Position numbers and translations under genes: made by a program
The notes under the pieces: model-generated
Database searches by the model: none
The model's input: only the letters and a program-made list of their open reading frames with translations
Told to the model about the DNA's origin: nothing
Source of the DNA: Eubacteriales bacterium
GTDB taxonomy: Bacteria; Bacillota; Clostridia; Lachnospirales; Lachnospiraceae
Assembly (NCBI GenBank): GCA_030536575.1
Contig: JAUNPS010000004.1
Location: 62,001 to 126,000 of the forward strand
Direction: 5' to 3'
DNA length: 64,000 nt
Part shown: in pieces, positions 11,324-55,217 of the stretch
Position numbering within the stretch: position 1 is the stretch's first letter
How the letters are laid out: each line of letters begins with the position of its first letter

Positions 11324-12115
11324 ATGAAGATTTTGATTGTGGATGATGAGATAAACATTGCCCGTGGGATTAAGGCAATGCTGCAGGCGGGGGTTTCCTT
11401 TGAACCGGTGGTGCGGTGTACGGCGAGCGGGGAGGAGGCGCTTGCGATTGCCAGGGAATTCCGGCCGGATCTGCTGATTACGGATATCCGGATGCCGCGG
11501 ATGAATGGGCTGGAGCTGATCGACGCGATGAAGGAGGCAGGCCTTTGCGGGGAGTTTTTGATCCTGTCCGGGTATGAGGACTTCGCGTATGCCCAGGAGG
11601 CGATCCGTAAGGGGGTGGCGGATTATCTGACGAAACCGGTGGAGCGGGAGTATTTGTGCGCGTTTTGTGAGAAGTGCTGTGAACGGATGCAGAAGAGGGC
11701 GCTGGAGCAGAATGTGCAGAAGGCGCCGGAGTTCCCGTTTTTGAGCTGGGAGCCGGAGAAGGAGGATTATCCGGCTTCGCTGCGGAACATTATCGGGTAT
11801 ATTGAGCAGAATTATGCGAAGCAGGAGCTTTCCGGGGCGAGTATTTCGGAGGCGTTGTTTTTTCATCCCAGTTACATTTCGCAGTTGATCGGGAAGTATA
11901 CGGATCGGAGTTTGAATGGGATTATTCATTATTTTCGGCTGAAGAAGGCGCTGGAGCTGCTGCTTTCGCCGAAGAATTACCGGGTCTGCGAGGTGAGCGG
12001 GATGGTGGGGTATAAGAGTGAGCGGCAGTTTTATAAGGCGTTTCAGAAGTATTTGGGGTGTACGCCGACGGGGTTCCGGAAGGAATATGGGGGCAATATC
12101 CAGTGGAGTGAATAA
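11324..12115 (+). CDS. YesN-type response regulator with AraC DNA-binding domain (locus A)
   Basis: 263 aa. The receiver domain (1-120) has the acidic pocket DDE at 7-9, the phospho-acceptor Asp54 (LLITDIRMPRMNG) and the KP pair in DYLTKPVERE. A short linker leads to two helix-turn-helix motifs of the AraC type, ending SERQFYKAFQKYLGCTPTGFRKEY. It is eight bases after its kinase. It is short for a YesN protein, lacking the long middle region seen in the locus C regulator. The likely target is the promoter of the locus A transporter and fucosidase genes. Confidence 0.9.
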   Translation: MKILIVDDEINIARGIKAMLQAGVSFEPVVRCTASGEEALAIAREFRPDLLITDIRMPRMNGLELIDAMKEAGLCGEFLILSGYEDFAYAQEAIRKGVADYLTKPVEREYLCAFCEKCCERMQKRALEQNVQKAPEFPFLSWEPEKEDYPASLRNIIGYIEQNYAKQELSGASISEALFFHPSYISQLIGKYTDRSLNGIIHYFRLKKALELLLSPKNYRVCEVSGMVGYKSERQFYKAFQKYLGCTPTGFRKEYGGNIQWSE

Positions 12116-12140
12116 AAACGGCAAAAAGGAGAAAAAGACG

Positions 12141-14384
12141 ATGAGACTATGGTATGCAGAAGCAGCAAAAACATGGCCGGAGGCCCTTCCGGTGGGGAAT
12201 GGCAGGCTTGGCGGGATGGTGTTCGGGGAACCTGTCCGGGAGACGATCCAACTGAATGAGGACAGCGTGTGGAGCGGGAAGAAGCTGGATCGGATCAATC
12301 CGGATGCGCAGAACTATTTGCCGGAGATCCGGCGGCTGATCCGGGAAGGGAATTTGGCCGAGGCCCAGCGGCTGGCAATGTATGCGCTTTCGGGGACGCC
12401 AAATTCCCAGCGGGCCTATCAGACCGCAGGAGAATGCAAGATCGAGATGCGCGGCCTGGGGAATATTGAAAACTATGAACGGGAGTTGGATTTGGACGAA
12501 GGGATTGCGAGGGTGCGCTTCTCTTCGGAGGGCGTGACTTATCACCGGGAGGTGCTGGCTTCCTGGCCGGAAAACGACATGGTCATTCATCTGTGGACGG
12601 AAGAAAACAAGCCCTTTTCCTTTGACTGCTCGCTGGAACGGTGCCGGAATTTCTTTGATGAAGTAAAGGCGGAAGGCGGAAACCGCATCCGTTTTCAGGT
12701 ACATGGGCCGGAGGGCGGAATTTCCTTCTGCGCCGCAGCCAGCGTGAAAGCGGAGGGCGGAACGGTTCGCACCATCGGCGAATATCTGGTCGCGGAGCAG
12801 GTGACGGACGCTGTAATTGCCCTGGATGTGGAAACTTCCTTCCGGGAGGTGGACTATGAGACGGCGGCGGTGAAACGGTGCGCGGAAATTCTGGAAAAGG
12901 ACATGGAGTCCATTCTGGACAGGCACCGGGCAGACTATCAAAAGTTGTTTTCAAGGCTTGCACTTCATTTCGACCGGGCGGATGAAAGCCTGGAGAAGCT
13001 TCCGACGGACGTGCGCTTAAAGGCCGCGCAGAACGGGGCGACGGACCTTGGGCTTCTGGAAACGTATTTCCAATACGGCCGTTATCTGCTGATCTCCAGC
13101 AGCCGGGAAGGCTCGCTTCCCGCGAATTTACAGGGCATCTGGAACGACAGCCTGACGCCGCCATGGGACAGCAAATTTACGATTAATATCAATACGGAGA
13201 TGAACTACTGGATCGCGGAGAGCGGAAATCTGTCCGAGTGCCATCAGCCATTGTTCGCGCACCTGGAACGGATCAAGGAAAGCGGAAAGGAGACGGCCCG
13301 CAGGATGTACGGCTGCCGGGGTTCCGTGGCCCATCACAACACAGACTTGTACACGGACACCGCGCCCCAGGATCACTATATGGCCTCTACCTTTTGGGTC
13401 ATGGGGGAGGCGTGGCTGGCCACCCACGTCTGGGAACATTACCTGTACACGAATGACCGGGCGTTCCTGCGGGAACATTTCGATATTCTGGAGCAATGCG
13501 TCCGTTTCTTCCAGGATTTCCTCATCGAAAATCCGGACGGCTATCTGGTCGTCTCGCCGTCCCTCTCCCCGGAAAATACCTACCGGATGGCCGACGGCAC
13601 GGAGGGTGTGCTCTGCGAAAGCCCCACAATGGATGTGGAAATCCTGGACGAGCTTTTCCGGGGCTACATCGGGGCCTGCCGTGTCCTGAACCTGGATCAG
13701 GAGCGGATTTCCCGGGCAGAAGAAATCCGGAAGCGTTTCCCGCCGCTGAAAATCGGAAAATACGGCCAGCTCCAGGAATGGATGGAGGACTACGACGAGC
13801 CGGAGCCGGGGCACCGCCACATTTCCCATCTGTACGGCATTTATCCGGGAAGCAGCCTGACGGAAGAAAAACGGCCGAAGGAGCGCAGGGCCGCCAGAGT
13901 GTCTCTGGAGCGGCGGCTGGCAAACGGCGGCGGCCATACGGGCTGGTCGCGGGCGTGGATCATCGGGCTCTGGGCGGCCTTTGGCGAAGGCGAAAAGGCC
14001 TGGGAGAATTTGCAGGCCATCCTTTCCATGGGAACCTTCCCGAATCTGATGGACAATCATCCGTGGCGGGGCGGCCATGTGTTCCAGATCGACGGAAATC
14101 TGGGGGCTTCGGCGGCTATGCTGGAGATGCTGGCCCAGTGCCGGGACGGACGGCTTTCGCTCCTTCCGGCGGTGACGGAGGAGACTGGGAGCGGGACGCT
14201 GCGGGGAATGCGCCTGCGCGGCGGGATCGAACTTTCCATGGAGTGGAAGGACGGGAAGGTGGAGCGGCTTCGCCTGCTTCCGGACAAACTGGAAGGGGAG
14301 AGCCTGGAACTGGAAGTAAATCTGAACGGAAAAAAAGAAAAAATCGTACTAAAAGCCGGTGAGGAATTTATCTGGGAAAGGTAG
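12141..14384 (+). CDS. GH95 alpha-L-fucosidase
   Basis: 747 aa. The N-terminal block PEALPVGNGRLGGMVFGEP and QLNEDSVWSG are signature GH95 sequences. The (alpha/alpha)6 barrel carries NINTEMNYWIAE (the two catalytic-network Asn residues of the family), the SPENTY and CESPTMDVEILDELF blocks, and QIDGNLGASAAMLEMLAQ near the C-terminus (conserved Asp). The family removes alpha-1,2-linked fucose (some members galactose) by inversion. It has no signal peptide, so it acts inside the cell on imported oligosaccharide. ATG 12141 has AAAAAGGAG upstream. It is the last gene of locus A and points to host or milk fucosyl-glycans as substrate. Confidence 0.9.
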   Translation: MRLWYAEAAKTWPEALPVGNGRLGGMVFGEPVRETIQLNEDSVWSGKKLDRINPDAQNYLPEIRRLIREGNLAEAQRLAMYALSGTPNSQRAYQTAGECKIEMRGLGNIENYERELDLDEGIARVRFSSEGVTYHREVLASWPENDMVIHLWTEENKPFSFDCSLERCRNFFDEVKAEGGNRIRFQVHGPEGGISFCAAASVKAEGGTVRTIGEYLVAEQVTDAVIALDVETSFREVDYETAAVKRCAEILEKDMESILDRHRADYQKLFSRLALHFDRADESLEKLPTDVRLKAAQNGATDLGLLETYFQYGRYLLISSSREGSLPANLQGIWNDSLTPPWDSKFTININTEMNYWIAESGNLSECHQPLFAHLERIKESGKETARRMYGCRGSVAHHNTDLYTDTAPQDHYMASTFWVMGEAWLATHVWEHYLYTNDRAFLREHFDILEQCVRFFQDFLIENPDGYLVVSPSLSPENTYRMADGTEGVLCESPTMDVEILDELFRGYIGACRVLNLDQERISRAEEIRKRFPPLKIGKYGQLQEWMEDYDEPEPGHRHISHLYGIYPGSSLTEEKRPKERRAARVSLERRLANGGGHTGWSRAWIIGLWAAFGEGEKAWENLQAILSMGTFPNLMDNHPWRGGHVFQIDGNLGASAAMLEMLAQCRDGRLSLLPAVTEETGSGTLRGMRLRGGIELSMEWKDGKVERLRLLPDKLEGESLELEVNLNGKKEKIVLKAGEEFIWER

Positions 14385-16998: not shown

Positions 16999-17024
16999 AA
17001 GAGCAGGCAGGAGGGATGCGAAGG

Positions 17025-17510
17025 ATGCAGACAATCGCGATTTTGGAAGCAATGGAACAGGGGATCCTGATCTGTAACCGTCACGGGCGGATTCAGTATA
17101 TGAATGAGGCTTACGGCAGTTTTATTGGCCATACGCTGGAGGAAGTGAAGGGGAAGCCCATCGCGGACTACCGGAAGCAGGCGAAGGTGCCGGAGGTGCT
17201 GGAAACCGGGATTCCGGTGGAGGGCATGATCCGCCGGGAGGGTTATCAGGAGTATTTTGCCAGTATTTATCCGATTTTGGAGGATGGGGAGATCCGGGGG
17301 ACGATTTCGGTCGTGACCACGTTGGAGGAGCACCATCTGAAGAAGTCGCTGAAGCATACGACGCTGGAAGAGCGGGTGCGGAATTTCGAGAGACAGGAGA
17401 TTCAGGCGACGGTGCGGTATTACGGAGGCGGCGTGGAAGGGAAGAAGCTGGCGGCGAAGGAGCTGGGGATTTCTCTGGCGACGTTGTATAATAAGTTAAA
17501 AGAGAACTGA
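17025..17510 (+). CDS. Small PAS-Fis transcriptional regulator lacking an AAA+ domain
   Basis: 161 aa. Residues about 1-105 form a PAS domain (ILEAMEQGILICNRHGRIQYMNEAY, IGHTLEEVKGKPI, then EYFASIYPILEDGEIRGTISVV). The C-terminal 40 residues are a Fis-type helix-turn-helix (VEGKKLAAKELGISLATLYNKLKEN) of the kind that ends sigma-54 enhancer-binding proteins. The AAA+ ATPase normally between them is missing, so it cannot act as a classical sigma-54 activator. ATG 17025 is better spaced from GGAGGG than ATG 17016. It lies just upstream of the AtuA-CocE fusion gene and may control it. Confidence 0.78.
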   Translation: MQTIAILEAMEQGILICNRHGRIQYMNEAYGSFIGHTLEEVKGKPIADYRKQAKVPEVLETGIPVEGMIRREGYQEYFASIYPILEDGEIRGTISVVTTLEEHHLKKSLKHTTLEERVRNFERQEIQATVRYYGGGVEGKKLAAKELGISLATLYNKLKEN

Positions 17511-17515
17511 GCGGA

Positions 17516-17558
17516 AACGCGGGTGATTTCTAAATTTTTAGAAATTTGCCCGCGTTTT
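17516..17558 (+). terminator. Terminator after the PAS-Fis gene
   Basis: AACGCGGG (17516-17523) pairs with CCCGCGTT (17549-17556). The loop region contains a second AT-rich dyad (ATTTCTAAA/TTTAGAAAT) and a short T run follows. The fusion gene downstream therefore probably has its own promoter. Confidence 0.7.
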
Positions 17559-17610
17559 CTTGTGCGTGGAGGGAGGACAACGTATACTTGGTTTCAAGGG
17601 AGGCGAAGAC

Positions 17611-20600
17611 ATGAGACTAAAAGAGATTGCACATGCGAGAACAGGAGATAAGGGAGAGATTTCGAATATTTCGGTGATCCCGTACCGGGAAGCGGACTTC
17701 GCGTGGCTGAAGGAGGAGCTGACGGCGGAGAAGGTGAAAGCGTTTTTCGCGGAGATCTGCCATGGCGAGGTGGTGCGGTATGAATTGGAGGGGATAAAGG
17801 CTTTTAATTTTGTGATGGATCGGACGCTGGGGGGCGGGGTGACGAGGTCACTGGCGTTGGATAAGCATGGGAAGACGCTGGGGATGGCGTTGTTGGAGAT
17901 GGAGGTGGAGACGCCGGAGGGGTGGACGAGGCCGGAAGTCGGGCGGAGCCAGAGCCAAGACGGACCGGAAAGAGCGGTGGTGCGGCAGGGCGAGCCGAAC
18001 GCGGCCGGGAGCCAGAACCAAGGCGGGTCGGAAAGTGCGGCGGTGCGACAGGGCGAGCTGAATGCGGCCGGGGGCCAGAGCCAAGGCGGACTGGAAAGTG
18101 CGGTGGTTCGGCGGTGCGGACTGGGTGCACTGGATACACCTCTGGAAGGGAAATGCATCCGCATCGGCAGCGGCGCGGGCTACGCCGGCGACCGCTTGGA
18201 ACCGGCACTGGAGCTGCTGGAAAAAGGCGATTTGGACTATCTGATTTTCGAATGCCTGGCGGAACGAACCGTAGCTTTGGGGCAGCAGGAAAAAGAGAAG
18301 GATTCCGAAAAAGGCTATAACCCCCTGCTGGAATACCGGATGCGGCGCGTCCTTCCGCTTGCAGCGGAAAAACACGTGAAAATCATCACAAACATGGGCG
18401 CGGCAAACCCGGAATCCGCCGCAGAACAGGTAAGCAAACTGGCCGGCGAACTGGGGCTGTCCCATCTTCGCATTGCTTATATTACCGGAGACGATATCAC
18501 AGACCGTCTGGAACAGTACGAAAACTGCCCCATTCTGGAAAACGGGAAAATCCTGGGCGACATGAGAGAAACCCTGATTTCCGCAAACGCTTACATGGGA
18601 GCGGAAGGTATCGTAGAAGCTTTAAGCCAGGGCGCGGATATTATCATCACCGGCCGCGTATCAGACCCGGCCCTGACCGTTGGCCCCCTGCTCTACGAAT
18701 TCGGCTGGAACCTCGAACAGCATCCGGATCAAATGGGCCAGGCTATCCTCGCAGGCCATCTGCTGGAATGCGCAGGCCAGGTCACGGGCGGCTACTATGC
18801 CTCCCCTGGCTATAAAGAAGTCCCAGATCTTGCCCATTTAGGATTCCCCATCATCGAAATCGATGAGACAGGCGGCTTTACTGTTTCGAAAGTGGAAGGC
18901 TCCGGCGGCCTGGTGAGCACCGATACCTGCAAAGAACAGACCGTCTACGAAATCCACAATCCGGCGGCTTACCTGACCCCTGACGCCATCGCCGACTTTA
19001 CAAAAGTACGGTACACTCAGATCGGAAAAGACCAGGTCTATGCCGCAGGAGCAACCTCCCACGGCAAGCCGGACACCCTGAAAGTCAGCGTGGGCTATAA
19101 AGACTGCTGGATTGGCGAAGGCGAAATTTCTTACGGCGGAGGCGGCTGCCTGGAGCGGGCGAAGCTGGCGGCGGAAATCCTGGAAAAGCGTATTGCCCTG
19201 ACCGGCATTTCCCTCACCGAATACCGCACGGAGCTGATCGGATGGGACTCTCTCTACCGGGAGCGGATTTCCGAAAAACTGCGCGCCGGGGAACCGCCCT
19301 GTGAGGTGCGCCTCCGGGTCAGCGGAAGAAGCAAAGACCGCTTACAAGCCGAGCTTTTGGCAGACGAGGTAGAAGCGCTGTACACGAACGGCCCGGCGGG
19401 CGGCGGCGGAGCCGTGAAACGGGTTTCGGAAATCGTGTCAGTGTGCTCGATCTTTGTACCGCGGACAGATATCCGGCAGGAGATACATTTCAGCAAGATG
19501 CCGGGGCAGGAGGAACGCATGCAGCGCTTGTTCCAAAAGCGGCTGGAAGCTGTGAAACTGCGCCCCATTACGGAACCTGGAAGTTCCTGGACAGAAATGG
19601 TTCCGATGGCGGACGGTATCCGTCTGGAAACCGTGATCTGCCTGCCGCGGGGCAGAGGCCCATGGCCTATTATCCTGAAACGGAGCTGTTATCCGAATCA
19701 GCAGGTCGAAATGGACTGGTATGCGGACGTCTTTACCTGCCGCGGCTTTGGCCTTGTTTATCAATGGTGCCGGGGAACGGCAGGTTCCGAAGGCGATTGG
19801 GAACCCAACGTCCATGAACGGGCGGACGGCCTTGCCACCGTGGAATGGCTGACTGGCCAGCCTTATACGAAAAACATCGGATTCTGGGGGGATTCCTACC
19901 TGGGTCTGACGGGCTGGTGCATGCTGGATGCCGTACCGGAAAGCGTGAAATCCATGTATCTGGGCGTGTACGGTGTTGACCGCCACACGTCGGCTTACAA
20001 GGACGGACTGTTCCGGCAGGATGTGCTGACCACCTGGGCCGCCGGAAATACCGGAAGCGCCATCCCGGAAGGGGTGAGCCAGATGGATTCCTGCCGCTAC
20101 CGGCCCCAGGAAGAGGTGGATGAAAAGCTCTGGGGCGTGCATTTGGACTGGTATCGGGACTGGATCAGCCATCCGGACCGCAGCAGCCATTATTGGTCGG
20201 AAGGATTCTGGGGAATGCTGAAAGAGATTCCGACGAAGGCGAAGATTCCCGTGTATATCCGCGACGGATGGTATGACCATCATCTTGGAAGCGCGATTGT
20301 TTCCTATGATTCGCTTTCGGAGGAGAGCAAGGCGCACAGCGTATTGCAGATCGGGCCGTGGAACCATGGGTACATTCCGGTGATTCCGTTTGAGGATACG
20401 AAAAATCTGGAGGACGACGCGCTGGATTCCGTTTTCCAGTGGTTCTATGAAACCCTTGTGAAGGAGAAGAAGCCCGAAGGCGCTGTGCGGGAATATGTCA
20501 TCGGTGAAGACCGCTGGATTGAAAAGAAGGAGCGCGCGCAATGCACAGAAACCCGGTCTTTCTATTTCGGAAACGGGACGCTGGACGCGCAGCCGGGGCA

Positions 20601-21168
20601 GGACGGGACATTGTCCTACGAATATGACCCGGAAAATCCGGTGCCCTCTCACGGGACGGAGGCAATGCTGGCCCACAGCGAGGAGCAGGGAAGCCTTGCG
20701 CAGCCGCAGCCGGGCGCGCGGCCGGATGTGATCAGTTTTGTGTCGGAACCTCTTGCGGAGGGCTTTACGACGGACGGGGTGATTGAAGTCGTGCTTTATG
20801 CGGCTTCGGACGCGGAGGATACCGCATTTACCGCGAAGGTGATGGAGGTCTTTCCGGATGGGACGGCGGTCAATGTGCGCGGAAGCATTACGACCCTTGC
20901 TTACCGGAATGGCGCGGACAAACGTCTGACGTATATGCCGGGAGAGAAGGTGGAGCTTCGGATTCCGATGTGGGACATTGCGTGGCATTTCCGGGAGGGA
21001 TCCCGGATTCGGGTGGATATCAGTTCGTCGGATTTTCCGCAGTATGCGGTGCACAGCAATTATCCGGGGGTGTGGTCGAAGCAGAGCCGGACGAAGATTG
21101 CAGAACAAACGCTTTATTACGGTGGGGGAAGCCCTTCAGAGGTGCGGTTCCCGCTGATAAAGAAATAA
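17611..21168 (+). CDS. Fusion protein: AtuA-type domains (DUF1446) plus CocE/NonD-family hydrolase
   Basis: 1185 aa, unusually long. Residues 1-105 look like the small ferredoxin-fold domain that normally lies at the C-terminus of AtuA-type proteins (KEIAHARTGDKGEISNISV). Residues 113-175 are a linker of three 21-residue repeats. Residues about 181-640 are an AtuA/DUF1446 domain (IRIGSGAGYAGDRLEPALELL, ITGRVSDPALTVGPL, SYGGGGCLERAKLAAEI). From about 660 it is an alpha/beta hydrolase of the CocE/NonD/X-Pro dipeptidyl-peptidase type: nucleophile Ser762 (GFWGDSYLGL), Asp889 (DGWYDHH), His919 (GPWNHG), then the family's jelly-roll C-terminus. AtuA proteins act in acyclic terpene or acyl-CoA breakdown; CocE-like enzymes split esters or amides. 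The joint substrate is unknown. A binding-protein gene follows by 34 bases. Confidence 0.8.
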   Translation: MRLKEIAHARTGDKGEISNISVIPYREADFAWLKEELTAEKVKAFFAEICHGEVVRYELEGIKAFNFVMDRTLGGGVTRSLALDKHGKTLGMALLEMEVETPEGWTRPEVGRSQSQDGPERAVVRQGEPNAAGSQNQGGSESAAVRQGELNAAGGQSQGGLESAVVRRCGLGALDTPLEGKCIRIGSGAGYAGDRLEPALELLEKGDLDYLIFECLAERTVALGQQEKEKDSEKGYNPLLEYRMRRVLPLAAEKHVKIITNMGAANPESAAEQVSKLAGELGLSHLRIAYITGDDITDRLEQYENCPILENGKILGDMRETLISANAYMGAEGIVEALSQGADIIITGRVSDPALTVGPLLYEFGWNLEQHPDQMGQAILAGHLLECAGQVTGGYYASPGYKEVPDLAHLGFPIIEIDETGGFTVSKVEGSGGLVSTDTCKEQTVYEIHNPAAYLTPDAIADFTKVRYTQIGKDQVYAAGATSHGKPDTLKVSVGYKDCWIGEGEISYGGGGCLERAKLAAEILEKRIALTGISLTEYRTELIGWDSLYRERISEKLRAGEPPCEVRLRVSGRSKDRLQAELLADEVEALYTNGPAGGGGAVKRVSEIVSVCSIFVPRTDIRQEIHFSKMPGQEERMQRLFQKRLEAVKLRPITEPGSSWTEMVPMADGIRLETVICLPRGRGPWPIILKRSCYPNQQVEMDWYADVFTCRGFGLVYQWCRGTAGSEGDWEPNVHERADGLATVEWLTGQPYTKNIGFWGDSYLGLTGWCMLDAVPESVKSMYLGVYGVDRHTSAYKDGLFRQDVLTTWAAGNTGSAIPEGVSQMDSCRYRPQEEVDEKLWGVHLDWYRDWISHPDRSSHYWSEGFWGMLKEIPTKAKIPVYIRDGWYDHHLGSAIVSYDSLSEESKAHSVLQIGPWNHGYIPVIPFEDTKNLEDDALDSVFQWFYETLVKEKKPEGAVREYVIGEDRWIEKKERAQCTETRSFYFGNGTLDAQPGQDGTLSYEYDPENPVPSHGTEAMLAHSEEQGSLAQPQPGARPDVISFVSEPLAEGFTTDGVIEVVLYAASDAEDTAFTAKVMEVFPDGTAVNVRGSITTLAYRNGADKRLTYMPGEKVELRIPMWDIAWHFREGSRIRVDISSSDFPQYAVHSNYPGVWSKQSRTKIAEQTLYYGGGSPSEVRFPLIKK
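17947..18135 (+). repeat. Three tandem 63-bp repeats inside the fusion gene
   Basis: Units 17947-18009, 18010-18072 and 18073-18135, each coding 21 residues and keeping the frame. Units 1 and 2 share the pattern SQxQxGxExAxVRQGExNAAG; the third has diverged at its end. Codons are GC-rich. The result is a hydrophilic linker between two folded domains. Confidence 0.9.
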
Positions 21169-21202
21169 CGAATAAGAACATATTTAAAAGGAGGATCTAT
21201 CT

Positions 21203-22786
21203 ATGAAGAAAAAGTTAGCAAGCGGTTTATTGGCAGTATCCCTGTCGGCAGGACTTTTGGCAGGCCTGGGAATGACGGCTGCGGCAGAAGAGTCCGGTAT
21301 AACGGTGACTTCCTACGGGGAATATTCCGAGGAAAATCCGTATCATCTGACGTTTGCCTACGTTGAGTTCTACAATCAGGACGAAGCAGCGAGAGCGGCG
21401 GTGCAGGATGCAATGAATGCGTACCTGATTCCGGAGTACCACATTGAAGTGGAACTTCTTCCGATGGGCTATGCAGACTATCAGACCACCGCGCAGCTGA
21501 TGCTGTCGGGCGGAGACGCGCTGGATGTGCTTCCGGTTTATTATCGGATGGCATCGAGCTGGATCAGCATGGGCGGCCTGTATGATATGTCGGAATTCAT
21601 GGATACGGAAGAGGGCCAGGCGATTAAGGATGCCATTGGGGAGGACAATGCTTCCCTGTGCGAAATGAACGGAGTTCTGTACGGCTTTCCGGCGAACAAA
21701 GAGTCCGTGGAGCTGGGCGGCCTGTGCATGCGGGCGGACATCTGCGACGAACTGGGGATTACGGAGGAATATGGCCTGAGCAAGGACAGCGAGATTTTCA
21801 CGGAGGCGCTGGACTGGTCGGAGGCTGAGAAGATTTTCCAGAAAGTGCAGGAGGCTTATCCGGATATGATTCCGCTGTATCTGTACAATGCGGATCAGCG
21901 CGGAAGATTTATGGATTTTGATTATCTGGTAGACGGCTTTGGCGGGCTGGATATGCAGGCAGACCGGGAGAGTACCGAGGTGGTGAACCTTTTCGAGACG
22001 GAGACGTTCCGGACGGCTGTGACGATGCTGGCGGACTGGTACGACAAGGGGTACATTTATAAGGATGCCGCGACGGATACCCAGGGAACGGCGGCAATGA
22101 TGAAAGCCGGAAATACGTTCAGCTATGCGACGGCGATTAAGCCGGGATTTTTGGCGGAGGCCAAGGCGGCGAACGGATGCGACTGTTATGTGCTGTATTT
22201 TAAGACGGGCGGCGGAACCGACGGATACATTACGACGGTCAACGTGTCCTATTACAATACCGGAATCGCGAATAACAGCGAAGATCCGGAAATGGCGTTC
22301 AAGTTTATCTCCGCGCTGTACAGCGACCCGAATGTGATGAACCTGTGGCAGTACGGGATTGAAGGTGTGAACTACCAGATTCTGGACGACGGAACGGCTT
22401 ACTTCGTGGACGGCGAGGATGGTTCGAATTATGCTTATCATCAGAATACCGGATGGTTTATGGGAAATCAGTTTATCAGCTATGTGTGGAATGATGAAGC
22501 GCGGACGAAGGATACGGGATACTGGGATCTTTTGAAGAGCCATAATGAGAATGCGTATTATTCTCCGGCGTTTGGGTTTACCTGGGACAGTTCGGAGTAT
22601 GCGACGCAGATTACGGCTTTGAGCAATGCGTATGAGACGTACCGGGCGGCGCTGCTGACGGGGAGCTGTGGGTCGGCGAATGTGGAGAGTACGATTCAGG
22701 CGCTGAATGATGCGTTGTATGCGTCGGGATTGGAGGAAGTGATGGAGGCCAAGCAGGCGCAGTTGGATGCGTGGCTGGGGAAATAA
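21203..22786 (+). CDS. Extracellular solute-binding protein without permeases (orphan)
   Basis: 527 aa. A Sec signal peptide (MKKKLASGLLAVSLSAGLL, cleavage likely after AAA near residue 28) has no lipobox cysteine. The mature protein has the family-1 binding-protein layout (ELLPMGYADYQTTAQLMLSGGD, later MAFKFISALYSDPNVMNLWQYG) and resembles LplA-type proteins. The RBS is AAAAGGAGG and it follows the AtuA-CocE fusion by 34 bases, so the two are probably one operon. No permease genes are adjacent; the next transporter set (22990 on) has its own binding protein. A terminator follows at 22835. Confidence 0.85.
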   Translation: MKKKLASGLLAVSLSAGLLAGLGMTAAAEESGITVTSYGEYSEENPYHLTFAYVEFYNQDEAARAAVQDAMNAYLIPEYHIEVELLPMGYADYQTTAQLMLSGGDALDVLPVYYRMASSWISMGGLYDMSEFMDTEEGQAIKDAIGEDNASLCEMNGVLYGFPANKESVELGGLCMRADICDELGITEEYGLSKDSEIFTEALDWSEAEKIFQKVQEAYPDMIPLYLYNADQRGRFMDFDYLVDGFGGLDMQADRESTEVVNLFETETFRTAVTMLADWYDKGYIYKDAATDTQGTAAMMKAGNTFSYATAIKPGFLAEAKAANGCDCYVLYFKTGGGTDGYITTVNVSYYNTGIANNSEDPEMAFKFISALYSDPNVMNLWQYGIEGVNYQILDDGTAYFVDGEDGSNYAYHQNTGWFMGNQFISYVWNDEARTKDTGYWDLLKSHNENAYYSPAFGFTWDSSEYATQITALSNAYETYRAALLTGSCGSANVESTIQALNDALYASGLEEVMEAKQAQLDAWLGK

Positions 22787-22834
22787 GAATGTGAGGCCGC
22801 TGGCTGGAAGACTGGCGGAAGCGGTTATGATGTG

Positions 22835-22872
22835 GCCGCTGGCTGGGGAAATACCCGGTCAGCGGCTGTTTT
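22835..22872 (+). terminator. Terminator of the fusion/binding-protein operon
   Basis: GCCGCTG (22835-22841) pairs with CAGCGGC (22860-22866), extended inward by G-C and G-U pairs, and is followed by TGTTTT. The same GGCCGCTGGCTGG string occurs once more just upstream (near 22795). Confidence 0.7.
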
Positions 22873-27776: not shown

Positions 27777-29317
27777 GAGATATCCGAGTTTTGATCGTCG
27801 AGGATGAACCGCCCATCGGCAGATTTGTTAAAAAACTGGTAGAGGAAACGGAAGGCTTTACGGTGGCGCAGGTCTGCTGTACCGGGGAGGAGGGATGCGA
27901 ATTCCTCCGGCCGGAGCCGCCGGACGTTTTGATTACCGATATTCGGCTGCCTGGTATGTCCGGTCTGGAATTGATCCGGAAGGCCAGGGAATATAGCCGG
28001 GAAATGTTCTGCATTGTGATCAGCGGCTATAAGATGTTCGAATATGCGAAAGAGGCTCTTGAGATGGAAGCCGCGGCCTATATTCTGAAGCCGATTGATC
28101 CGGAGGAATTGAGACGGAATCTGGATGCGGTTCGGGAGGCCTGGGAAAAGTCCTATGCGGAGACAAGAAAGAAAAAGCTGCAGGAAGCATTTCGGAAAAA
28201 GGATGAAAAAGCTTTTCAGGAAATTTTTCCAGAGGGTTCCATGCGGCTTTTTGCGGTTTATTATGGGGATCGGCAGGAGGAAATCTGCCGGATTGCTGTT
28301 GGGGTGGATCGGAGTATTCCGTGGTTTTTCTATAAAGACTGGATTTTTTTTGCGGAGGGCGCGTCCAGAGAGGAAAGCTGTTTTGAGAAGATTGAACGGA
28401 AAATTTTGGGACGGGCGGGACGGAGGAATACCTGCACCTGTGTGATGATTCCGAAGCTCTCTGGGGATACGCCGATGATTGGCGAGATCAAAAAGCTCTG
28501 CCATGAAAAATTGGAACCGCTCAGTGTTCCGGGAAGGGCGATTCGGATGGAACTGGGGAAGGACGTGGAAATTCCGGAGAAAAAGATTTCGGATGAGAGG
28601 CTGCTGCGGCAGATCCGGATTGCGGTTCAGGCGCAGGAGGAACGAAATGTAAAAAAGCATTTCTGGGAACTCTATGCGCTTTGGGAGAAAGAACAGGCTG
28701 GAATCGCGCACATTCGGAGGGCAATGCATGAAATTGCGGACACGCTGAAAAGAGAAGGGTTTCTTCCGGCGGATGCGGCCGTATGGAAAGAGGGAATCGA
28801 AGAAAGTATTCGGACAGGGGACAGTTTTGCGGAGATTCGGGACAGTGTGTGGAAGGTTATCGAAGAATTGTTCCGGAGCAATCATGTGGGAGAAAAGTAT
28901 TTCCGTAAAGATGAGGAGAAGCTTTTCCGGCAGATTTGCTGTTTGCTTGAGCAGAATCCGGAAAAGAACTATTCGCTCCAGGAAATCTGCAGCCGTTTTT
29001 CGGTTAGTCCGCCTTATGTCCGGAAAATTTTTAAGCGCTATACCGGGAAAACCTACAAGGAATATCAATTGGAACAGAAGCTGGAGCTTGCCAGGCAATT
29101 CCTGGATCAGAATCCCACGATGCTGGTGCGGGAGGTGGCGGATCGCATCGGGTTTGAACAGCTTTATTTTGGAACGGTATTTGGAAAATATATGGGAATG
29201 ACGCCTTCGCAGTATAAGGCGAAGAAGCTGGCGGAAAGGAGTGGGGAAGCGGATGCTGTACGAAAAGAACAAGGAGACAACGCTCAGGCGGGAATTGTTT
29301 CAGAATCCGACCTGTGA
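27773..29317 (+). CDS. YesN-type response regulator with AraC DNA-binding domain (locus C)
   Basis: 514 aa. The receiver domain has EDE near residues 10-12, phospho-acceptor Asp56 (VLITDIRLPGMSG) and the KP pair in YILKPIDPEE. A middle region of about 250 residues has no motif I recognise, as is usual for long YesN proteins. The C-terminal AraC domain has two helix-turn-helix motifs (YSLQEICSRFSVSPPYVRKIFKRYTGKTYKEY, then VREVADRIGFEQLYFGTVFGKYMGMTPSQYK). It overlaps its kinase by four bases and the downstream glycosidase gene by about 65. Confidence 0.9.
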   Translation: MRDIRVLIVEDEPPIGRFVKKLVEETEGFTVAQVCCTGEEGCEFLRPEPPDVLITDIRLPGMSGLELIRKAREYSREMFCIVISGYKMFEYAKEALEMEAAAYILKPIDPEELRRNLDAVREAWEKSYAETRKKKLQEAFRKKDEKAFQEIFPEGSMRLFAVYYGDRQEEICRIAVGVDRSIPWFFYKDWIFFAEGASREESCFEKIERKILGRAGRRNTCTCVMIPKLSGDTPMIGEIKKLCHEKLEPLSVPGRAIRMELGKDVEIPEKKISDERLLRQIRIAVQAQEERNVKKHFWELYALWEKEQAGIAHIRRAMHEIADTLKREGFLPADAAVWKEGIEESIRTGDSFAEIRDSVWKVIEELFRSNHVGEKYFRKDEEKLFRQICCLLEQNPEKNYSLQEICSRFSVSPPYVRKIFKRYTGKTYKEYQLEQKLELARQFLDQNPTMLVREVADRIGFEQLYFGTVFGKYMGMTPSQYKAKKLAERSGEADAVRKEQGDNAQAGIVSESDL

Positions 29318-32300
29318 ATACCGGGGAGCGCCGTTTTGGGCGTGGAATGGGAAATTGGAGGAGGAAACGCTGAAAAACCAGATTGAAACCATGAAAAAAA
29401 TGGGGATGGGCGGCTTTCATATGCATGTGCGCACCGGGATGGACAGCCCTTATCTGGACGAAGCGTTTCTGGAATTCGTGAAGACCTGCGTGGAAAAGGC
29501 TGAGGAGGAGGAGATGCTGGCGTGGCTTTATGATGAAGACCGCTGGCCGTCCGGGACTGCGGGCGGGCTTGTGACACGCGGGAATCCGGAGTATGCCGCT
29601 AAAAATCTGTTGATTACGGCCAGACCTTACGAGGAAGGGAAGAGAAAGCGCGAAGAGGTTCCCGTGGCCGGAAGCGGGCGCGGAGGAATGCGTCAGGAGA
29701 ATGGGGAGCTTCTGGCGGTCTATGACATTGTGCAAAATGAGGACGGAAGCCTGAAATCCTGGTGCAGAAAGGATTTTTTGGATGCGGCAGGGCAGGGAAC
29801 GCGGATTTATGCATATCTGGAGCATGGGAATGCGGATTCCTGGTTTAACAATGCCGCTTATGTGGATACGCTGTGTGAAGAAGCCATTCAAAAGTTCCTT
29901 ACGGTTACACACGAGACCTATGAAAAAGCGGTAGGCGAGGAATTTGGAAGGCGAATTCCCGCTATTTTTACGGATGAGCCGCAGTTCAATGAGAAAAATA
30001 CGCTGGATTTTGCCGGAGAAAGGAAGGATATTTTCCTTCCGTGGACGACTGATTTTGCGGAGACATTCCAGAGGGAGTATGGCCGGGATATTCTGGCGGA
30101 TTTGCCGGAGCTTTTATGGGAACTTCCCAAAGGACAGGTGTCCGTGCTGCGTTATCAATATCATAATCATGTGGCGGATCGTTTTGTGCGCTCTTTTTGT
30201 GCGCAGATTGGCGGCTGGTGCCGGGAGCATGGAATTGCGCTTACGGGGCATGTGTTAGGAGAAGGCAGTTTGCAGGAACAGACCGCATATCTGGGAGAAG
30301 CGATGCGATGCTACCGGCACTTTGGAATACCGGGCATTGATGTGCTCTGTGACCGGCATGAGTATACGACCGCAAAACAGGCGCAGTCCATCGTTCATCA
30401 GGCGGGTAAGGAGGCGATGCTGTCTGAATTATATGGCGTCACCGGGTGGGATTGCGATTTTCGAACTTATAAGCTGCAGGGGGATTGGCAGGCGGCGCTG
30501 GGGGTGACGGTGCGCGTGCCGCATTTATTCTGGATGACGATGAAGGGAGAAGCGAAGCGGGACTATCCGGCGTCGATTGGCGTTCAGTCGCCCTGGTTTG
30601 CGGAGTATGCGATGATTGAGGATCATTTTGCCAGGGTGAATACGGCGATGACCAGAGGGGTTCCTGTAGTGAGGGTGGCGGTGGTTCATCCGATTGAGAG
30701 TTACTGGTTGCACTGGGGGCCGTCGGAGCAGACGTTTGCGGCAAGAGAGCATCTGGAGGGGCGGTTTCAGGAATTGGCGGAATTGCTGCTGTTTCATGGG
30801 ATTGATTTTGATTATCTTTCGGAGAAGGAGCTGCCTTATTTTTGTGAAGGTGGCGGAAATCCGCTGAAAGTGGGGGCAATGTGTTACGATGTGGTGGTTG
30901 TGTGCGGCTGTGAAACGCTGCGGGGCAGTACCGTCGAGCGTTTGGAGGATTTTGTGGCGGAAGGTGGGGAGCTGCTCTTTTTCGGGGAGTATCCGAAATA
31001 TGTGGATGCGGTTCCATCCGGGAAGCTTTCGGCATTTTGCAGCCGGGGAAAGCAGGTTCCGTTTGAAGAAACGGCTGTTTTAGAAGCGCTGGAGCCCTGG
31101 CGATTTCTGGATATCCGCAGGGAAGACGGGAGCAGGGAGGACCGGATTGTGCATCAGCTTCGCGGGGATGGCGATGGTTTCTGGCTGTTTGCGGCGATGG
31201 GGAAAAATCCGGTATGCCAGGACGTGGATGATGCGGAGAAGGTGCGCTTTTTCATGAAAGGGCGCTGGAAGCTGACGCTTTACGATACCCTGACCGGGGA
31301 GATTCGGGAGCTGCGTGCGGATTACCAAAATGGCAAGACGATTCTGACGCGGAAATGGCATCATCATGACAGCATGCTTTTGTGGTTGGAAAAGGCGGAT
31401 TTTTCGTCTGTGGACTCGACAGAAATACCGGAGGAAAAGGAAGAGCCAAAGGGGCGTCCGTCTCTGCTGTTCGATTTGGTGGATGTGGAGCTGGAGGAAC
31501 CGAATATGCTGCTTCTGGATTTGGCGGAATATGCGCTGAATGGAGAGGATTTCCGGCCGGAGGAAGAGCTTCTGCGGCTGGACAATCAGGTGCGGAAGGA
31601 ATTGGGCCTGCCTCTTCGGAGAAAGGAGGTTGTACAGCCCTATTTGCTGAAAGAAACGGAGTCGGTGGGCAGGCTGGCCCTTCGGTTTCCTGTTTTCAGT
31701 GAAATTCGGGTAGAGGAGCCGGAATTGGCTTTGGAGGACGCGGAGCAAACGGTGATTTTCTGGAATGGAGCCAGAGTGGAGCAGAGAAAGACCGGATGGT
31801 TTGTGGATCGCTGTATCGAAAAAATTGCTTTGCCGCCCATAGAGGTTGGAAAAAATGTCCTGGAAATTCAGGTTCCGGTGGGGGAGCGGACAAATCTGGA
31901 AGCTTTTTATCTGCTGGGAGATTTCGGGGTACGGGTGAATGGAACCAGGAAAACGGTTATTGCACCGGTGCGAAAGTTGGGGTTTGGGGACATTGTACCG
32001 CAGGGACTGCCTTTTTATACGGGCAATGTGCTTTATAAATTCCGGGTGGAGGCAGAAAAGGGGCTGAAGATTCGGATCCCCAGATATCGGGGAGGGCTTC
32101 TGAAGGTTTTCGTGGACGGGAAGGACTGCGGAAATGTGGCGTTTTCGCCTTATGAGGCGGATTTGTCCGGAATTCTTCCAGGAGTGCATGAGATTGGAAT
32201 CCGGCTTTATGGGACGAGGCAGAATGGGTTTGCGCAGCTTCATCATACGCCGGGAATCTGGTTTTATCAGAGTCCGAATTCTTTCCGGAGTGAAGGGGCG

Positions 32301-32384
32301 AGGTGGTGTTATGAGTATCAGTTTAAAGAAGCTGGGATTTTGAGAAGTCCGGAGATTTATGGGGGACGGGTGGTGGAAGGATAG
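29253..32384 (+). CDS. Large GH106-like glycosidase (locus C)
   Basis: 1043 aa. It opens with YRGAPFWAWNGKLEEETLKNQ, then MGMGGFHMHVRTGMDSPYL and AWLYDEDRWPSGTAGG, the arrangement of the N-terminal catalytic barrel in the GH106 alpha-L-rhamnosidase group. I assign it at superfamily level only. The middle (ESYWLHWGPSEQ) and the C-terminal beta-sandwich region are shared with the protein encoded at 52143. No signal peptide, so it is cytoplasmic. ATG 29253 lies 11 bases after AAAGGAG; the GTG at 29241 overlaps that RBS. The start lies within the end of the regulator gene, so expression is coupled to locus C. Confidence 0.75.
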   Translation: MLYEKNKETTLRRELFQNPTCEYRGAPFWAWNGKLEEETLKNQIETMKKMGMGGFHMHVRTGMDSPYLDEAFLEFVKTCVEKAEEEEMLAWLYDEDRWPSGTAGGLVTRGNPEYAAKNLLITARPYEEGKRKREEVPVAGSGRGGMRQENGELLAVYDIVQNEDGSLKSWCRKDFLDAAGQGTRIYAYLEHGNADSWFNNAAYVDTLCEEAIQKFLTVTHETYEKAVGEEFGRRIPAIFTDEPQFNEKNTLDFAGERKDIFLPWTTDFAETFQREYGRDILADLPELLWELPKGQVSVLRYQYHNHVADRFVRSFCAQIGGWCREHGIALTGHVLGEGSLQEQTAYLGEAMRCYRHFGIPGIDVLCDRHEYTTAKQAQSIVHQAGKEAMLSELYGVTGWDCDFRTYKLQGDWQAALGVTVRVPHLFWMTMKGEAKRDYPASIGVQSPWFAEYAMIEDHFARVNTAMTRGVPVVRVAVVHPIESYWLHWGPSEQTFAAREHLEGRFQELAELLLFHGIDFDYLSEKELPYFCEGGGNPLKVGAMCYDVVVVCGCETLRGSTVERLEDFVAEGGELLFFGEYPKYVDAVPSGKLSAFCSRGKQVPFEETAVLEALEPWRFLDIRREDGSREDRIVHQLRGDGDGFWLFAAMGKNPVCQDVDDAEKVRFFMKGRWKLTLYDTLTGEIRELRADYQNGKTILTRKWHHHDSMLLWLEKADFSSVDSTEIPEEKEEPKGRPSLLFDLVDVELEEPNMLLLDLAEYALNGEDFRPEEELLRLDNQVRKELGLPLRRKEVVQPYLLKETESVGRLALRFPVFSEIRVEEPELALEDAEQTVIFWNGARVEQRKTGWFVDRCIEKIALPPIEVGKNVLEIQVPVGERTNLEAFYLLGDFGVRVNGTRKTVIAPVRKLGFGDIVPQGLPFYTGNVLYKFRVEAEKGLKIRIPRYRGGLLKVFVDGKDCGNVAFSPYEADLSGILPGVHEIGIRLYGTRQNGFAQLHHTPGIWFYQSPNSFRSEGARWCYEYQFKEAGILRSPEIYGGRVVEG

Positions 32385-36606: not shown

Positions 36607-36648
36607 AATTCATTTCATTCTTGTGAGCAGCGAGTCAAGCAGCCGCAT

Positions 36649-36790
36649 TTGCGCGGATATTGCCAGGAAATTATCGTTTCCCGGAATAGAATCAGCGAGC
36701 AAGCAACCGCCTTGCGCGGATATTGCCAGGAAATTATCGTTTCCCGGAATAGAATCAGCGAATCAAACGGCCGCACTTGCGCGGATATTT
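36649..36790. repeat. 63-bp direct repeats downstream of murC
   Basis: A 50-base stretch is identical at 36649-36698 and 36712-36761 (period 63). A third partial copy starts near 36777, and a diverged flank resembling the unit boundary appears near 36398-36420. Each unit contains CCAGGAAATTATCGTTTCCC, which can fold into a hairpin. No gene is evident in 36041-36872. Confidence 0.85.
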
Positions 36791-44706: not shown

Positions 44707-45951
44707 TTAGGAGGTGGGGGAGGAGAGGCGGGTTTCCAGGAGGGTGAGGCGTTCCTGGGATTGGGCGAGGGCGGCTTGGAGTTGTTCAAGCAGGGATTGC
44801 TGCTGGGTGATGGTATCTTTCAACTGAGTATTTTCTGATCTTTGCTGTTCATTTACTGCGTTTAGACGTGCAAGCTCTTTATCTTGCTGTGAGAGCTTTT
44901 CGTTCTGCTGAGCCAACTTATCATTCTGCTGTGTCAGCAGTTGCCCCTGTTGAGCCAGCTTATCATTCTGTTGTGAAAGCTTTTCGCCCTGCTGGGCCAG
45001 CGCCTCCTTGTGTTGAACTAACGACGCCTCCTGCTGAGCCAGCTCCGCCTTCTTCTGTTCAAGCTCCACCTGCATCTCATCGATCATATACTGCGCCGTA
45101 TTCCGATCCAAAATTTTCAATTCATCCGAAAAAAATCCCATAACATTCTCCATATTTCTGCATATTGCATATGCCTGCTCATACATAGCTGAGAAGTCCT
45201 GATAACGCTCGATCAGATCCAGAATCACCTCCGGGTCATCCTCCGCCAGAAACGTCAGCCATGCGTCCAACCGGTTTCTGATACCTCTATTCTGCCGGAC
45301 TTTCCGGAAGATGTCAAGAGGAATCAGGATAAATTTTTGCAGCATTTTCATTTTCAGGCCGGTATTTGACTGCTGCTGAAAGAAATGGACATAGCGCCCT
45401 GGAAATTTTTTAAACTCCCTGGGACTTTTCGCGTAAAGGACAATGGTATAAACGTCCTTGATATCCTTATAGCTAAATTTTTTCTCGCGGTTGCTGCGGG
45501 ATTTCTTATATTGCCGCAGAAGCATGTCCGCCGAGTAGCAGGCGCACCGCTGTCCGGGAAACGCATAGCCCACCTTCTGCACCTCCACATTCGCAATGCT
45601 TCCATCCTCCAGCTTCACGATCATATCCGTAACCAGAAGCGTGCCTTCATCCGCAATGCGCGTATTATCATTCGGAAGTACCTCAACAATCGTCACCTTC
45701 CGTCCAAGGAGCAGCGAAAGGAATTCTTCCAGCCGCTCCGGCGTCGTGGAAGGATTCATAATTTCTTTAAAGAAAGAATCATAGAGCATCTTAATGCCCC
45801 TCACCCCGGTGCAGAAATCCAGAAATTCTGTTTGCTGCTCCTCGGTCCATGTCAGAAAAGTATCGTTCAGATGTGCCGTGCGTCGGATCTCCTCCAGCAC
45901 CTCCGTTCTTGTGCGGATGTTGGGAAAACGTTCCCGTAAAGTTTTTGCCAT
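44707..45951 (-). CDS. Rpn-family nuclease (PD-(D/E)XK) with heptad-repeat tail
   Basis: 414 aa. Residues 1-280 match the Rpn/transposase-like nuclease family: FLDFCTGVRGIKMLYDSFFKEIMNP, then the active-site arrangement Asp109 (TDMIVKLEDG) and Glu123-x-Gln125 (NVEVQK), and CYSADMLLRQYKK. Residues about 285-405 are a long coiled coil built from seven-residue repeats (QQNDKLAQQ, QQGQLLTQQ, QQNEKLSQQ). Family members promote RecA-independent recombination and some act in anti-phage defence. It faces the GH2 gene and is alone. The repeat tract could expand or contract by recombination. The start is supported by AAGGAGTGA upstream. Confidence 0.85.
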   Translation of the reverse strand: MAKTLRERFPNIRTRTEVLEEIRRTAHLNDTFLTWTEEQQTEFLDFCTGVRGIKMLYDSFFKEIMNPSTTPERLEEFLSLLLGRKVTIVEVLPNDNTRIADEGTLLVTDMIVKLEDGSIANVEVQKVGYAFPGQRCACYSADMLLRQYKKSRSNREKKFSYKDIKDVYTIVLYAKSPREFKKFPGRYVHFFQQQSNTGLKMKMLQKFILIPLDIFRKVRQNRGIRNRLDAWLTFLAEDDPEVILDLIERYQDFSAMYEQAYAICRNMENVMGFFSDELKILDRNTAQYMIDEMQVELEQKKAELAQQEASLVQHKEALAQQGEKLSQQNDKLAQQGQLLTQQNDKLAQQNEKLSQQDKELARLNAVNEQQRSENTQLKDTITQQQSLLEQLQAALAQSQERLTLLETRLSSPTS

Positions 45952-55100: not shown

Positions 55101-55217
55101 TGGCGGACGCAGGACGAGGCCTATTCCTATGAATACCAGATCAAACCCGCCGGGATCTTAAAGACGCCGGTGCTTCTGGAAAAAGCTGGACAGGATTTTG
55201 GAAACATGGCAGAATGA
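52143..55217 (+). CDS. Large GH106-like glycosidase (locus D)
   Basis: 1024 aa, a paralogue of the enzyme at 29253. Shared blocks are RFRGAPFWAWNNRLEKEKLKK, MGMGGFHIHCRTGLDTEYL, YLYDEDRWPSGAAGG, SIFTDEPQF, ELYGVTNWDFDFRGHKLQGDW, ESYWLHFGP and the C-terminal beta-sandwich. This arrangement points to the GH106 alpha-L-rhamnosidase group at superfamily level. The conserved Asp/Glu pairs in DEDRW and TDEPQ are candidate catalytic or metal-site residues. No signal peptide. It is preceded by GGGGGACGGGC, a rather poor RBS. An esterase gene follows by 30 bases, hinting at an acylated substrate. Confidence 0.75.
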   Translation: MNSQWTEQEFQNPPARFRGAPFWAWNNRLEKEKLKKQIGYFKEMGMGGFHIHCRTGLDTEYLGKEFLECVAECAEEGRKQGLYTYLYDEDRWPSGAAGGKVTKEEAYRSRFFAFVPDGEAEVCPEGKLLGSYRITLKDGYLESYRFAEKGEQGDGIWRLYLQTAKPSPWFNNQTYLDTLNKKAVERFLEVTHETYYTLLGEEFGKTIPSIFTDEPQFQRKETLAFAEEKKTLILPGTDSFEAFYRERYGESFLEHFPEVVWELPDGQVSAARYQYHDGIAELFATSFADTIGSWCREHHLMLTGHMMEEPTLLSQTSALGEAMRSYRGFQQPGIDMLCDWREYTTAKQAQSAAHQYGCPGVLSELYGVTNWDFDFRGHKLQGDWQAALGVTRRVHHLAWASMEGEAKRDYPAPIFYQSAWYQAYKMVEDHFARVNTALMRGKPRVRIGVIHPVESYWLHFGPREQTAQIREILEKNFRDVTEWLLFGNLDFDFLAESLLPGQNVHEEDGKLCVGDMRYDVILVPGCETLRSTTIAYLSAYAGHGGNVLFAGQLPEYVDARPNPEGKRLAERCTVIPFGQAAILEALEAYRELEIRKADGGRADQFLFQMREDGENRWLFLANVRKPENPDLPRQEPYQIRIRGSWEAELCDTQDGTVRKLAVNRRNGWTIFWHILDIHDSLLLRLTPAALDAVREQEPVSLQRPAPSIRKTIPQPDRYVLEEPNVLLLDQCEYRLDEEPWQETEEILRIDNQLRERFGYPKRMEAMPQPWVENEEGDTAHTIELRFRIFSEITCEGAELVLENAEDAEIFFRDVPVKAAPCGWFVDESLKRIRLGTVYPGENILRIRRPFGRKTNLEWHYLCGNFGVRVAGRSAYLTSLPEKLNFGDFTVQGLPFYAGNLCYETAFPVEREGTYQLQASKFRAPLLQVSVDGGAWKPIAYAPYQAELGVLKPGVHQLKLRVFGSRVNAFGAVHNCDETLEWFGPDAWRTQDEAYSYEYQIKPAGILKTPVLLEKAGQDFGNMAE

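Follow-up and report, generated by a model that had tools for sequence, protein, structure and literature searches.

The window analysed here is a stretch of 64,000 nucleotides from the draft genome of a member of the Lachnospiraceae (Eubacteriales bacterium, contig JAUNPS010000004.1, positions 62,001 to 126,000). At 17611–21168 (+) it carries a fused gene in which an AtuA-type lyase, its small subunit in reversed order and a hydrolase of the S15/CocE family are joined in one polypeptide. This layout is real, and its parts are known elsewhere as separate genes. On balance, we lean towards reading the product as a cytoplasmic two-step catabolic enzyme, which would hydrolyse an imported ester or amide and then cleave the freed tertiary beta-hydroxy acid.

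Domain structure of the fused protein

The gene was translated without a stop as one uninterrupted frame of 1185 residues. Its ATG at 17611 is preceded by AAGGGAGG (by eye); a mechanically longer reading from a TTG at 17560 (1202 residues) is possible. Four Pfam domains were found, all on the + strand and all above their own cut-offs: the AtuA_ferredoxin small domain (PF23544, residues 1–100, 17611–17910; E 9.7e-35, 119.7 bits), the AtuA core (PF07287, residues 183–627, 18157–19491; E 2.5e-154, 514.7 bits), the S15/CocE alpha-beta hydrolase domain (PF02129, Peptidase_S15, residues 668–921, 19612–20373; E 2.1e-38) and PepX_C (PF08530, residues 969–1178, 20515–21144; E 3.4e-22). A fifth family was matched at E 0.13, under its own cut-off, and the HMGL-like domain of 3-hydroxy-3-methylglutaryl-CoA lyase (PF00682) was not among these five families with E up to 1.

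The hydrolase part is complete. The NCBIfam model TIGR00976 (CocE_NonD) covers residues 664–1184 with 248 bits against a cut-off of 66.3, and the catalytic residues Ser762 (nucleophile, GDSYLG, codon 19894–19896), Asp889 (GWYDHH, codon 20275–20277) and His919 (GPWNHG, codon 20365–20367), all on the + strand, are identical in 17/17 aligned hydrolases. Cocaine esterase structures in the PDB match this domain. CocE cocaine esterase and the alpha-amino acid ester hydrolases belong to the same family and share the triad, with a whole-domain match to PDB 1ju3 and others; they differ in being listed as stand-alone enzymes, not fused. CocE/S15 hydrolases are broad in specificity.

Small domain and core are separated by a linker (residues 105–180, 17923–18150, +), most of which is filled by a tandem repeat with a period of 63 bp (2.7 copies, 17945–18112); at 21 codons per period, the repeat preserves the reading frame. 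A mobile repeat was rejected as the origin of the linker because the rest of the same genome gave just three matches (E 0.2 to 0.7). A second 63-bp tandem repeat in the window (36628–36789, 2.5 copies) lies between called frames and is, by eye, unlike the linker repeat.

The fused protein retains all 17 invariant columns of the small domain (compared with 29 other aligned rows), all 53 of the AtuA core (31 other rows) and 83 of the 85 of the hydrolase (16 other rows). Since nearly all invariant columns of the three parts are kept, it looks like a working protein. No signal peptide was seen by eye (no prediction was run), which points to a cytoplasmic location. The original prediction, made from the DNA letters without database searches, had read this gene as an open frame of 1185 residues with an AtuA small domain at the N-terminus, a repeat linker, an AtuA/DUF1446 core and a complete CocE/NonD hydrolase with the same three catalytic residues, and all of these features were recovered.

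Distribution of the layout

Named genomes were scanned with the core alignment, and the best 80 of 387 relatives (the 80 named loci) were used for all counts below, the remaining 307 standing outside them. The small domain is present in 80/80 of these loci, and in 79 it is encoded by the next gene behind the core. The exception is L091 from Lachnoclostridium sp. An169 (a genome record without the label of a metagenome-assembled genome), where the small domain is fused ahead of the core as in the window. Upstream of the L091 gene lie a short PAS-Fis regulator gene and a palindrome, again as in the window; it differs in its length (586 residues), in its linker (about 28 residues, by eye without such a repeat) and in having no hydrolase within the 15 kb examined. 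The two small domains are 84% identical. The window and L091 form a sister pair in the 82-row core tree (support 100/98), with weak agreement from a tree of 20 chosen small-domain rows (90/90). Because the two are sisters, the small-domain-first fusion arose, most simply, once, before the window and L091 diverged.

Three single-chain AtuA proteins were scanned for comparison (Roseibium, Rhodococcus and Sphingobium, from plasmids of Pseudomonadota and Actinomycetota; Pseudomonas was not among them), and in all three the small domain stands behind the core. The original prediction had described the AtuA domain as permuted. The small domain does come first and the usual order is core first, as it had stated; ‘moved and fused’ is the better description because this branch mostly encodes the small domain in a gene of its own. 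An N-terminus unrelated to AtuA, the alternative that had been set against the prediction, is contradicted by the PF23544 match and by the same order in a second genome.

Searches with the whole protein gave matches, often to the hydrolase part alone, in 10/61 genomes (its own and relatives), 47/397 genomes of the family and 35/391 of the class, these sets being overlapping. A single frame across all three parts was not found outside its own genome in these searches, and a first whole-protein scan of genome contigs confirmed no relative. Two candidates for the three-part fusion, G093 and G398 (frames of 1116 and 1119 residues), were rejected, as their DNA shows three separate genes each. A survey for the same fusion had been proposed with the original prediction: the order of small domain and core recurs in An169, and among the genomes searched a frame of all three parts was seen in the genome of the window alone. 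In that genome (4.81 Mb, 100 contigs, 90.73% complete, 3.1% contaminated), AtuA was matched once. A literature search, in which some queries were swamped by unrelated words, found no AtuA–CocE fusion.

The junction of core and hydrolase is thus seen in one draft genome of incomplete and slightly contaminated sequence, and the fused protein has a match in neither of the two other genomes of the genus (0/2), so that an assembly artefact joining genes had to be considered. Against it stand the same order of small domain and core in An169, with a short regulator and a palindrome upstream in both genomes, and the location of the single frame far from both ends of its contig (164,811 bases, gene start at base 79,611), with a 21-codon repeat that stays in frame; the window is free of N. 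An artefact is very improbable overall. For the part joining small domain and core, misassembly is ruled out by An169; for the part joining core and hydrolase it is unlikely.

The hydrolase as a recurrent partner of the core

Of the 80 named loci, 13 have a hydrolase adjoining the core and the small domain, 10 of them on the downstream side and 3 on the upstream side. With the presence of the hydrolase as a label on the core tree (15 of 82 rows: the 13 loci, the window and L170), 6 changes were required. In the hydrolase tree, the window hydrolase stands apart from those of the core relatives L090, L092, L093 and L098 (support 98/96). Forcing it together with the hydrolases of its nearest core relatives was rejected, with p-AU 6.6e-7 without L047 and 4.9e-11 with L047 kept outside (L047 nests among the five rows); the grouping under test came from the core tree, but the hydrolase tree was already known when the tests were made. 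Since the window hydrolase is not of one descent with the hydrolases beside its nearest core relatives, the pairing of core and hydrolase was probably made more than once. Two relatives of the hydrolase, L044:6635-8368 (49% identical) and L047:8289-9983 (41% identical), lie in loci with no AtuA core in the examined DNA.

Genes of the hydrolase and of the CitMHS transporter exclude each other. Next to the core, none of the 80 named loci has both, 13 have the hydrolase only, 49 CitMHS only and 18 neither (Fisher 6.5e-7); anywhere in the examined locus DNA, the counts are 0, 13, 51 and 16. This exclusion suggests two modes of supply of the acid, as if the CitMHS group imported a free acid and the hydrolase group freed it from a conjugate.

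The recurrence bears on the view that the fusion is a near-neutral one between functionally unlinked neighbours, the hydrolase being a general esterase or peptidase. The breadth of the family would fit this view, as would the lack of a hydrolase in the examined An169 DNA, the restriction of the core–hydrolase fusion to one genome and the two loci with a hydrolase and no nearby core. We consider it quite unlikely, given that hydrolases of different descent are repeatedly paired with the lyase genes (6 changes on the tree), before them as well as behind them, and that nearly all conserved residues are retained in the fused protein.

Chemistry of the AtuA part

The profile of the core matched chain A of PDB 9erq/9evf, deposited as citramalate lyase subunit A (CmlA), with E 4.4e-7; the small domain gave no match beyond chance when compared with solved structures. 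Chain B of these entries (CmlB) was matched by a DUF4387 protein encoded in a genome of the same class (E 8.1e-26), and DUF4387 (PF14330) had no match in the genome of the window (90.73% complete). CmlA/CmlB thus resemble the fused protein in consisting of a large chain of the AtuA family (456 residues) and a small chain of 105 residues. They differ in that the small chain is DUF4387 and not PF23544, the two chains are separate and there is no hydrolase; the similarity is remote. A literature search found no paper on the CmlA/CmlB structure. An arrangement like that of the citramalate lyase was seen at G486:C89, G502:C93, G537:C143 and G551:C25, where a weak AtuA match (E 7e-5 to 9e-4) lies no more than about 1 kb from a match to DUF4387.

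A second comparison is with ThnQ and ThnS of anaerobic naphthalene degradation, two AtuA-like products said, in a paper that refers to unpublished results (PMC12016498), to cleave beside a tertiary alcohol. There the substrate is the CoA ester of a cyclic acid, and the likeness is one of description. The assignment of AtuA as a CoA-ester lyase is tentative, ‘speculated’ in PMC9973270. A 2015 paper (PMC4682846) places DUF1446 beside methylaspartate ammonia-lyase, with its function unknown at that time, and reports that citrate-grown E. coli gave no citramalate lyase activity. The AtuA known from the use of acyclic terpenes belongs, by name, to the same core family. By analogy with these systems, the chemistry common to AtuA relatives with a partner of about 100 residues is cleavage beside a tertiary alcohol, and a C–C lyase is the best reading of the AtuA part.

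Genes within four to five genes of the core on the same strand were compared for the 80 named loci, each cluster or subunit taking its name from a single scanned member. Acetoacetate-type partners were found in 18 loci: CoA transferase A/B (8), thiolase (7), 3-hydroxyacyl-CoA dehydrogenase (4), acetoacetate decarboxylase (3) and HMGL-like proteins (3). These partner families handle acetoacetate or acetoacetyl-CoA. In L096, core, small domain, hydrolase, thiolase and CoA transferase stand in one row. Genes of the acetoacetate decarboxylase family behind core and small domain lie at L128:8652-9506 (scanned) and, by cluster, at L137:8704-9558 and L148:5313-6170. The neighbours suggest an acetoacetate-like ketone as the likeliest product. 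As neighbours at related loci handle acetoacetate or acetoacetyl-CoA, 3-hydroxy-3-methylglutarate or a homologue is a candidate substrate; that the freed acid is 3-hydroxy-3-methylglutarate itself is possible, if doubtful. The original prediction had linked AtuA to acyclic terpene or acyl-CoA pathways. A C–C lyase is favoured here, with neighbours at related loci suggesting acetoacetate-type chemistry over the terpene kind.

Within a single pathway, the lyase may use a CoA thioester, the hydrolase acting on a side substrate or freeing an acid that another enzyme activates first. The tentative role of AtuA as a CoA-ester lyase and the CoA ester reportedly cleaved by ThnQ/ThnS speak for this version, as do CoA transferase A/B near 8/80 loci and a family III CoA transferase in L126. 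CmlAB, by contrast, is deposited as citramalate lyase, by name an enzyme of the free acid. The window unit (17016–22786) contains no CoA transferase or ligase, and acetoacetate decarboxylase, a family that acts on the free acid, is found near 3/80 loci. We regard the thioester version as somewhat improbable.

Control region

A short PAS-Fis regulator gene (17016–17510, +; 164 residues, Pfam PAS and HTH_8) without an AAA+ domain lies upstream of the fused gene and is likely a local regulator. The short form is found directly upstream of the core or fusion in 6 of the 80 named loci (L090–L093, L098 and L100). At other loci, a relative of the regulator carries a sigma-54 AAA+ domain (one was scanned), and a GAFTGA-like motif is present in 38/45 long relatives.

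Between regulator and fused gene, a palindrome TTTCTAAATTTTTAGAAA (17527–17544) is a putative operator of the PAS-Fis regulator. It is enclosed by an outer inverted repeat AAACGCGGG / CCCGCGTTT (17515–17557, with CCCGCGTTTTC), possibly the terminator of the regulator gene. The 18-bp palindrome TTTCTAAAATTTTAGAAA was found with at least 15/18 matches, up to 3.5 kb upstream of the core, in 41/80 named loci, a count that leans upward because the consensus was derived from these same loci; in 20 single-base shuffles, the mean was 0.85 and the maximum 3 of 80 loci. Matches were complete (18/18) in L090, L100, L103, L107, L108, L109, L113, L115 and L116. The palindrome accompanies the regulator: it is present in 36/47 loci with a regulator of the PAS-Fis cluster anywhere and in 5/33 without.

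Loci with at least 14 palindrome matches were scanned, over 300 bases below the palindrome, for TGGCAC-N5-TTGCW (at least 9/11), which we take to be the sigma-54 promoter consensus. Such promoters were found in 28/36 loci with a long regulator (0.26 expected) and in 5/9 regulator-free loci (0.12 expected), and in 0/6 loci with a short regulator; none was found below the window palindrome (best 6/11). The sigma-54 DNA-binding domain had no match in the genome of the window and was present in 4/14 control genomes. To judge from these patterns, the palindrome looks like an enhancer-type site that was retained as an operator when the regulator shed its AAA+ part and the promoter ceased to depend on sigma-54.

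Downstream gene and surroundings

The binding protein that the original prediction had noted next to the fused gene is an extracellular solute-binding protein with a DUF3502 domain (21203–22786, +; 527 residues). Neither an inverted repeat nor a terminator-like site was found in the 34-base gap between the two genes, and the binding protein is followed by a terminator-like hairpin (16-pair stem and T-rich tail; 22832–22869, +), so that both genes probably share a transcript; terminator-like sites in the region as a whole show no excess (5, against 5.9 in shuffles). Members of the binding-protein cluster also occur in L042/L131 (one contig), L043 and L132, each of which has a hydrolase, and DUF3502 itself was found in L043 and L132. 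In Catenibacillus scindens, a piece of 191 residues behind the hydrolase (L131:8871-9446) is much shorter than its relatives and possibly broken; it reaches 25.4 bits for SBP_bac_1 (cut-off 26). In L139, the hydrolase is followed by a binding protein and a permease.

Carbohydrate-active genes lie elsewhere in the window at 12018–14384, 29241–32384, 52143–55217 and 60418–61905 (GH95, GH32 and two GH106-like matches under cut-off), accompanied by several binding-protein and permease genes around the unit. A PD-(D/E)XK family transposase-like protein is encoded at 44707–45951 (−).

Proposed function

We propose that an ABC importer using the adjacent DUF3502 binding protein would take up a small hydroxy acid in ester or amide form, and that the CocE/S15 part would release the acid. 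The AtuA core and small domain, acting like CmlAB or ThnQS, would then cut the C–C bond beside the tertiary alcohol, and the products would be a ketone and a small carboxylate (acetate in the case of a carboxymethyl leaving arm). The local PAS-Fis protein may control the unit through the palindrome at 17527–17544. Two consecutive steps on an imported substrate had been suggested by the original prediction and are indirectly supported here.

Several observations weigh against this proposal. We know of no activity for any member of this AtuA branch; the CmlA match is remote, and CmlB belongs to another Pfam family than the small domain. Acetoacetate-type partners are found in just 3 of the 13 hydrolase loci (L094, L096 and L132), mostly occurring in hydrolase-free loci, and are absent from the window unit. 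Further neighbours lead in other directions: an HpcH/HpaI lyase with the family III CoA transferase in L126 (citramalyl-CoA-like chemistry), peptidases of the M20 and M42 families in the clusters to which L122, L138 and L048 belong, phosphotransferase system (PTS) and metallo-beta-lactamase-like genes in L142 (all of these named from one scanned member each), and, in L090, an amylase and a GH39 gene behind the hydrolase. On the core tree, the hydrolase label shows clustering (shuffled mean 13.9 changes; 0/500 as low as 6), and the Fisher test of hydrolase against CitMHS ignores shared descent and includes some short contigs. In An169, the 15 kb examined contain a fused lyase but no hydrolase, and the lyase therefore does not need the hydrolase. 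By strict adjacency, the binding-protein cluster is near the core in 1/80 loci, namely the 191-residue piece of L131.

In a more specific form, which is unlikely as it stands, one polypeptide would hydrolyse imported conjugates of 3-hydroxy-3-methylglutaryl or a similar group, for example acylated plant glycosides, and would cleave the acid without CoA to acetoacetate and acetate, passing the intermediate from hydrolase to lyase. One literature search on such glycosides and gut bacteria gave no title of relevance. With the small subunit moved to the N-terminus, the far end of the core may have become available for joining the hydrolase.

A subunit has moved from the gene behind its partner to the partner's front, and this is seen in two genomes belonging to one clade. 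Beside it stands an enhancer-type site that seems to have persisted after the sigma-54 promoter and the regulator's AAA+ domain were lost. AtuA/DUF1446 proteins occur in many anaerobes under a terpene name, and the fusion and the related operons make the question of their substrate concrete. A CoA-free route in a single polypeptide, if true, would be one so far undescribed in bacteria.

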